Shown here in pieces: positions 446 through 1,288 of a stretch of DNA of 64,000 bases. The stretch comes from Flexistipes sinusarabici DSM 4947. GTDB lineage: Bacteria; Chrysiogenota; Deferribacteres; Deferribacterales; Flexistipitaceae. The stretch covers positions 1,897,451 through 1,961,450 of the forward strand of contig NC_015672.1 in NCBI RefSeq assembly GCF_000218625.1, given 5' to 3'. Below the pieces are notes generated by a model. It was not told the origin of the DNA. It saw nothing but the letters and a program-made list of their open reading frames with translations, and ran no database searches. Made by a program: the position numbers and the translations under genes. Each line of letters begins with the position of its first letter. Position 1 is the stretch's first letter.

Positions 446-1288
446 ATGAAAACTTACGAAATTAGACAAATTGTGAAGACCCGCTACGGCAAATTCGCTG
501 AAACAGGCGGCAACAAGGAGTCTTGTTGACCGAGCAAGAGACAGCCCAGTTTGGGCTATGAAATTGACTCGGGGCTTTATGAACAGGCTGAGCTTTCCCT
601 GGTACCAGAATTTGCTCTCAATATCTCACGAGGTTGTGGCAACCCTACGGGCTTTGCGAACCTTCAGCCAGGTGATGTGGTTGTAGATTTTGGTTGTGGC
701 GGCGGGATAGACGTCATCCTGGCTGTTCACAAAGTCGGCCCGCAAGGGAGAGTAATCGGAATAGATGGCACGCCTCAAATGATCGAACGGGCCAAGCAGG
801 CTGTGACTGAGGCAGGATTGCAAGACAGGAACATCGAATTCTGCAATGCCTACTTGGACGAGACGCGATTTTTAGACGGCTTCGCGGATGTCGTGACATC
901 TAATTGTGTCATCAACCTATGCCCTGACAAGGATGCAGTATACAAGGAAGCCTTTCGTATCCTGAAACCTGGTGGGCGGATTGCCATCTCGGATATTGTT
1001 TTCATAGATAACATCAATCATGAGCTACGAGAGCGCTTCCAGTCAACTTGGGCAGGATGTTTGGGAGGAGCAATAGCAGAAGAAGACTACTGGCAAACGG
1101 TGAAAAAAGCGGGCTTTGCTGAGATTCAAATTGTGGCTCGTCATACTCTCAACCCCGAAGAATTGGAAGCAATGGCCTGTTGTCCTGGCAAAGAATTCAC
1201 TCCGCCGCCGAGCAAGGAAGATCGTGTTGCTGTGGAAGGGAAGGTGACTAGCGTCAAGTTCACGGCGATCAAGCCGCTTCTGAAGTGA
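446..1288 (+). CDS. arsM: Arsenite S-adenosylmethyltransferase with in-frame TGA (candidate selenoprotein)
   Basis: Arsenite methyltransferase transfers methyl groups from S-adenosylmethionine to As(III) in the cytoplasm. If TGA 527-529 is read through, the protein is 280 residues. The SAM-binding motif DFGCGGG lies at about 81-87. Conserved cysteines are visible in GCGNP (C64), SNCVINL (C154) and AGCLGGA (C205), matching the arsenic-binding cysteines of the family. The ATG at 446 has an upstream GGAG and fits the family N-terminus (YGKFAETGG...). The only downstream start, TTG at 551, has no ribosome-binding site and would lose the N-terminal Cys motif. Codon 28 is TGA, directly after Cys27, where relatives have Cys-Cys. 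Either it is selenocysteine or the gene carries a nonsense mutation. The gene is visibly more GC-rich than its neighbours and lies in an integron-type cassette. Confidence 0.85.
527..557 (+). promoter_or_regulatory. Candidate bacterial SECIS: TGA plus downstream hairpin
   Basis: TGA (527-529) is followed by a perfect 6-bp stem, AGCCCA (543-548) with TGGGCT (552-557), closing a three-base GTT loop. The loop begins with G (549), 19 nt after the TGA. Bacterial SECIS elements need a short stem, a small apical loop with an early G, and a spacing of roughly 16-37 nt; all three hold here. The stem is short and could be chance. SelB recognition cannot be judged from sequence alone. Confidence 0.5.

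Follow-up and report, generated by a model that had tools for sequence, protein, structure and literature searches.

A candidate selenocysteine-containing arsenite methyltransferase gene, with the selenocysteine in its N-terminal Cys pair, on an integron-type cassette of Flexistipes sinusarabici

The arsM frame of Flexistipes sinusarabici, a heat-tolerant bacterium of the Red Sea, is very probably a functional selenoprotein gene in which the in-frame TGA at codon 28 encodes selenocysteine (Sec). On comparative sequence grounds, we put the probability of this reading at about 0.93. Positions are those of the window, the whole 64,000-nucleotide stretch that was analysed, and the host genome used for searches was that of F. 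sinusarabici MAS10T (one contig, 2,526,590 bases; PMC3236037). A sequence-only reading had proposed the gene as a candidate Sec arsenite methyltransferase, and the decoding machinery, the TGA and hairpin of relatives and the constraint at the RNA level all agreed with that proposal. The gene and its recoding signal comprise the following features.

446..1288, + strand: arsM-like arsenite methyltransferase, 280 aa with Sec28 (NCBIfam profile match, alignment and purifying selection)
432..437, + strand: Shine-Dalgarno sequence AAGGAG, 8 nt upstream of the ATG (sequence)
527..529, + strand: in-frame TGA, codon 28, read as selenocysteine (sequence and comparison with relatives)
530..572, + strand: putative bacterial SECIS element (folding, cross-gene conservation and the published bSECIS model, PMC13188914)
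543..557, + strand: apical hairpin of the SECIS, AGCCCA-GUU-UGGGCU (folding; AGCCC/GGGCU stem invariant in seven TGA genes)

The ATG at 446, which had been described as well placed, indeed followed a Shine-Dalgarno sequence. Reading of the open frame confirmed that the TGA after Cys27 was the sole internal stop and that the frame stayed open to 1288, with the terminal stop being a TGA at 1286-1288. The protein reads MKTYEIRQIVKTRYGKFAETGGNKESC-U-PSKRQPSLGYE..., and the GC content of arsM was approximately 50% against 38.3% genome-wide. The simple alternative offered at first was a single nonsense mutation, by which arsM would be a pseudogene and its hairpin a coincidence. Such a fate would suit a laterally acquired, strain-specific gene in a genome with 85 pseudogenes (PMC3236037); however, apart from the TGA the frame was intact, and purifying selection acted on both parts of it. 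Against its five nearest TGA relatives, the Flexistipes gene gave pN/pS values of 0.18-0.43 (codons 1-27) and 0.18-0.27 (codons 29-280); this selection as protein on either side of the TGA therefore excluded a pseudogene.

A different rival is that the TGA ends a short leader peptide and that a shorter ArsM, devoid of the N-terminal Cys, starts from TTG at 551 (codon 36). Standard ORF callers do return 551-1288 (245 aa), and thus only a truncated arsM, an annotation that the present reading corrects. We regard this start as very improbable, because codon 36 was TTG only in Flexistipes and TCG in all six of the other TGA genes; furthermore, position 551 lacked a Shine-Dalgarno sequence, and codons 1-27 were conserved as protein.

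We compared the hairpin downstream of the TGA with the published bSECIS model, which gives a loop of 3-9 nt, an upper stem of 4-16 bp, a spacing of 16-37 nt and an MFE of -7.5 kcal/mol or lower, with G at loop position 1 or 2 followed by G or U (PMC13188914). The arsM hairpin agreed with all four measures (loop GUU, 6 bp, 19 nt, and -8.6 kcal/mol for 40 nt). The 6-bp stem and the G-led 3-nt loop were therefore as originally noted, and the distance did fall within the bacterial SECIS range; the 19 nt past the TGA, however, marks the start of the loop, and the stem begins at 13 nt. An MFE of -18.0 kcal/mol was obtained for 46 nt, and none of 200 shuffles folded equally well. By itself, the small arsM hairpin was only modestly unusual (z -1.6). 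What places it beyond chance is that the TGA and hairpin were common to six independent genomes and that the synonymous sites were frozen. An invariant third position was seen at 5/5 hairpin codons (33-37) across the seven TGA genes, compared with 7.2% of the other codons, and codons 33-37 formed the sole run in arsM of at least three such codons. In accord with this, both fourfold-degenerate sites in the hairpin were invariant (2/2, versus 3/86 elsewhere). These frozen third positions indicate that the RNA itself is constrained. Covariation in the stem was not detected among the seven TGA genes, where the shuffle control was not exceeded, because the stem was too conserved; its sole varying pair was A-U, G-C or A.C. 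Against Rfam, no part of the window scored over threshold, and the SECIS region matched no SECIS family.

The machinery needed to decode the TGA was sought in the host genome, as had been suggested, and all four components were found: SelA (472 aa) adjoining SelB (621 aa; 310 bits, cut-off 242), SelD (335 bits) and a tRNA-Sec with the TCA anticodon. A second tRNA-Sec match (51 bits) was rejected as tRNA-Leu. The selD gene also appeared to encode a selenoprotein (L017 1396-2424, - strand): its codon 13, where Sec or Cys usually stands, was an in-frame TGA, and 17 nt beyond it came a SECIS-like hairpin of 7 bp with the loop GGA, arranged as in arsM.

Relatives were sought in species genomes and by three phylum searches. 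The arsM clade included genes with 83% (L051), 73% (L052), 61% (L053) and 52% (L054) identity to the Flexistipes gene, together with L166, L186 and L187, and beyond it, in one of the searches, the match scores dropped from 533 to 243 bits. Ordinary ArsM proteins from other bacteria had identities of at most approximately 45%, and the two further ArsM-type genes of the F. sinusarabici genome had 38% identity to the Sec-arsM. Six relatives from several phyla (L051, L052, L166, L186, L187 and L054), with identities of approximately 52-83%, carried TGA precisely at codon 28, and at equal distance all six shared CAGCCC[AG]GTT[CT]GGGCTA (AAGCCC in L186). The suggested comparison for relatives with a TGA at the same codon and a hairpin was positive in six cases; their stem was invariant and left no room for covariation to show. 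The conservation of the TGA spanned seven genes, with one close Cys relative and many distant Cys homologues. In L054 the order was UC rather than CU, i.e., U28-C29, and codon 27 was NCT, a non-Cys codon, in a sequence that contains Ns.

The opposite picture, of relatives with TGC or TGT and without the hairpin, did not hold. The one exception among the relatives was L053, which had TGT in place of TGA and a broken hairpin (TACGTCCAGTTCAAGCTTTG), and whose host had no SelB over the cut-off and no tRNA-Sec; the best tRNA-Sec match in this host (47 bits) was rejected as tRNA-Ser. In the tree, the arsM clade stood apart from the canonical Cys ArsM (support 100/100, stem branch length 1.03), and the Sec gene L054 split off before the Cys gene L053 at a modestly supported node (92/68). 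If that branching is right, L053 would be a Sec-to-Cys reversion.

Of the seven TGA genomes, six had a SelB that scored over the curated threshold, namely Flexistipes and the hosts of L051, L052, L054, L186 and L187, counts that include metagenome-assembled genomes (MAGs) of unstated completeness; for the L051, L052 and L054 hosts, ARAGORN also confirmed a tRNA-Sec. In G274, the host of L166, SelB was not found, and the EF-Tu-sized match of approximately 190 bits seen in other hosts was missing too, for which reason this assembly is probably incomplete. Because only about 21.5% of sequenced bacteria are Sec-decoding (PMC1794560), SelB in 6/7 hosts is far from chance. A nonsense mutation would have to account for this association as well as for the same TGA in seven genes of separate genomes and for the frozen synonymous sites over their hairpin; these seven genes and frozen sites effectively excluded it, and we consider it extremely improbable. 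Recoding of codon 28 as Sec is the reading that we carry forward.

The gene lies in what appears to be an integron-type gene cassette. The following features define it and its surroundings.

397..1442, + strand: putative integron-type gene cassette with arsM (core/R' complementarity; GC content)
1317..1448, + strand: putative attC of the arsM cassette (R' GCCTAAC; R'' GTTATGC at 1442-1448; folding)
1443..2125, + strand: putative second cassette with a TTG-start membrane-protein ORF of 216 aa at 1466-2116 (core/R' match)
2074..2131, + strand: putative attC of the second cassette (single-strand DNA fold, z -3.9)
216..396, + strand: attI-like leader of approximately 180 bp, ending at core GTTAGGC (blastn and alignment of five copies)
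329..358, + strand: candidate sigma-70 promoter TTGACT-18-TATACT (sequence; recurs in other leader copies)

The core GTTAGGC (396-402) and R' GCCTAAC (1317-1323) were exact reverse complements of each other, and in the second cassette the core GTTATGC (1442-1448) matched the reverse complement of R' GCATAAC (2074-2080). We read these units as integron-type cassettes because such a reciprocal core/R' match is expected of cassettes that can circularise. The arms of the arsM attC lay at 1326-1346 and 1420-1438. As bottom single strands, the attC sites folded with z-scores of -2.7 (arsM cassette) and -3.9 (second cassette), in both cases with extrahelical bases. Similarity to L051 ran beyond the arsM stop and ended at R' (1323), and the arsM of L051 was itself flanked by GTTAGCC and a GTCTAAC...GTTAGGG site. 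The arsM cassette is putatively mobile.

Homology of the leader among its five copies ended at 398-403, that is, at the core site, and unrelated cassettes followed leader copies in G001 and at other places in G000. The other copies were located in L198 (913-951 and 3492-3673), L199 (1710-1875, - strand) and L200 (1374-1537), in two Flexistipes genomes. The leader holds a TATACAGAACTGTATA palindrome and a TTGAc-17/18-TATact pair, and the cassettes downstream of it differ, each with its own attC. Two promoter-like sites were found in the leader, a count that is weak alone against 1.5 in shuffles. There was no match over the cut-off for the integron integrase (TIGR02249) in the G000 genome, and the leader copies appear to be dispersed attI-like sites with no integrase nearby. 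The Flexistipes units therefore resemble integron gene cassettes and CALIN arrays in having a single ORF with an attC, an R'/core match and two units in tandem, but differ from them in the lack of an integrase over the cut-off, the dispersed leader and a selenoprotein gene as cargo.

In the congener G002, radC was directly followed by the mrp-like gene, and the segment 1-13393 was missing, indicating that this segment is a strain-variable 13.4-kb island between radC and the mrp-like ATPase gene. The island also holds a transposase and a DNA methylase/helicase pair resembling a type III restriction-modification system, besides the two cassettes. Just upstream of the leader, positions 1-215 matched many short dispersed repeats of the genome and are possibly MITE-like.

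Searches for the Sec-arsM on mobile elements gave no close relative among viral contigs (0 found), phages (just distant partial matches) or plasmids (all <60% identity; among the matches listed, the best was <43%). In L052 (Rokubacteria CSP1-6), the Sec-arsM sits within an operon resembling that of a 2-oxoacid:ferredoxin oxidoreductase. There, the opening bases of the following gene recur at the start of arsM (2318-2341 and 3203-3226; CGGCAGGAGGTCCGGCTG), as if by insertion with a short duplication.

With Cys put for Sec, the best NCBIfam family of the protein was NF008823 at 244.6 bits, narrowly missing the cut-off of 263 and leading the next-best family by approximately 74 bits. In alignment with Cys homologues, U28 took the place of the latter Cys of their SCC motif, and the As/redox cysteines Cys27, Cys64 (GCGNP), Cys154 (SNCVINL) and Cys205 (GCLGG) were kept. 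Cys27 was fully or almost fully conserved across the alignments, and position 28 almost fully. In algal ArsM, the N-terminal Cys coordinates As(III). Solved structures of relatives include algal ArsM entries, e.g., 6cx6. In human AS3MT, Cys61, Cys156 and Cys206 are active-site residues, and a Cys32-Cys250 disulfide must be reduced ahead of catalysis (PMC4211708). It is plausible that Sec28 partners the GCGNP Cys in the catalytic disulfide, as was first suggested; most likely, Sec28 would serve as a ligand of As(III), enter a fast selenenylsulfide, or do both.

It is unlikely, though worth weighing, that Sec is inserted yet stays peripheral, with little catalytic role at position 28, and that Cys27 does the chemistry. 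Cys27 was invariant in the first alignment, and some ArsM proteins do without the second Cys, both of which would fit such a division of labour; against it, selection is implied by the persistence of Sec and SECIS across deep divergence, and L054 keeps Sec28 beside a non-Cys residue 27 (NCT codon). The U28-C29 order of L054, with no Cys27, points to selenocysteine rather than Cys27 as the feature that would be constant there.

SelB bound to the hairpin just past UGA28 would deliver Sec-tRNA-Sec. The predicted product is a SAM-dependent arsenite methyltransferase of 280 aa, in which Cys27 and Sec28 form a vicinal pair at the N-terminus. Cys64, Cys154 and Cys205 are retained. The enzyme probably methylates As(III), and Sec28 probably serves during the cycle as the N-terminal As(III) ligand and/or the fast-reducing selenenylsulfide partner. 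Horizontal transfer of an integron-type cassette would have brought the gene in, and the promoter in the leader probably drives its expression.

Selenoprotein ArsM itself has reportedly been known since about the work of Fomenko in 2007. In the main texts compared, Sec-ArsM is represented by 8 GOS sequences (PMC2398784), by 41 proteins in 39 organisms (PMC5029168) and by WP_011987699.1, for which Fomenko 2007 is cited as the source (PMC9312934). The main text of a 2026 catalogue lists UxxG as the motif both of Sec-ArsM and of the NCBIfam fusion families (PMC13188914). We took the known Sec position from this motif, from the mouse Cys157/Cys207 work (in PMC4211708) and from nine UxxG proteins. 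The latter are encoded by TGA-containing ArsM-like genes (L147-L155) in seven genomes, with U of UxxG at the Cys205 position, SNG replacing SNC and the N-terminal CC missing; by these features they appear to be the catalogued type.

The catalogued Sec-ArsM (PRK11873/NF008823) and the Flexistipes clade are both ArsM-type methyltransferases with one Sec, specified by a TGA and a bSECIS; in the former Sec is the U of UxxG, whereas in the latter it is residue 28 of the N-terminal pair, position 205 is still Cys and the remaining cysteines are kept. The fusion families ArsM/AhpD (NF041537), ArsM/DUF2284 (NF041536) and MTase/UXPK-star (NF047649) share a homologous methyltransferase domain and Sec, but they are multi-Sec with UxxG as the motif catalogued in that main text. 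The Flexistipes protein has no fused domain and scored 171, 165 and 153 bits against their respective cut-offs of 510, 575 and 460. Canonical Cys ArsM of bacteria (SCC...GCGNP...SNCVINL...GC) has the same fold, the four Cys positions and 35-45% identity, but the Flexistipes enzyme has Sec for the second Cys of the CC. L156 encodes an ordinary Cys ArsM of 253 aa (3816-4577, + strand) and a 505-aa protein (9356-10873, - strand) in which a C-terminal radical-SAM part, ArsS-like by eye, is joined to an ArsM domain. The surrounding cluster, which also encodes glycosyltransferases, a disulfide reductase and a TVP38-like membrane protein, is arsenosugar-like.

Under the rule of PMC9312934 that the same domain with a different Sec site makes a different subfamily, the Flexistipes clade is separate because its Sec site differs. 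It is reasonably probable that these genes form a distinct N-terminal-CU subfamily of Sec-ArsM, with its own SECIS, that moved between phyla as an integron cassette. Sec-ArsM is already known; by the main texts compared, the N-terminal Cys pair is apparently an uncatalogued site, and thus a second Sec position in arsenite methyltransferase. The role of this pair in As(III) binding or disulfide exchange is debated, and the U28 enzyme, a U28C variant and the natural Cys relative allow a direct comparison. If the reading is true, the cassette would be a portable metalloid-resistance gene that yields its full protein just in Sec-decoding hosts, and a selenoprotein gene on a putatively mobile cassette prompts one to ask how frequently integrons carry genes that depend on recoding.
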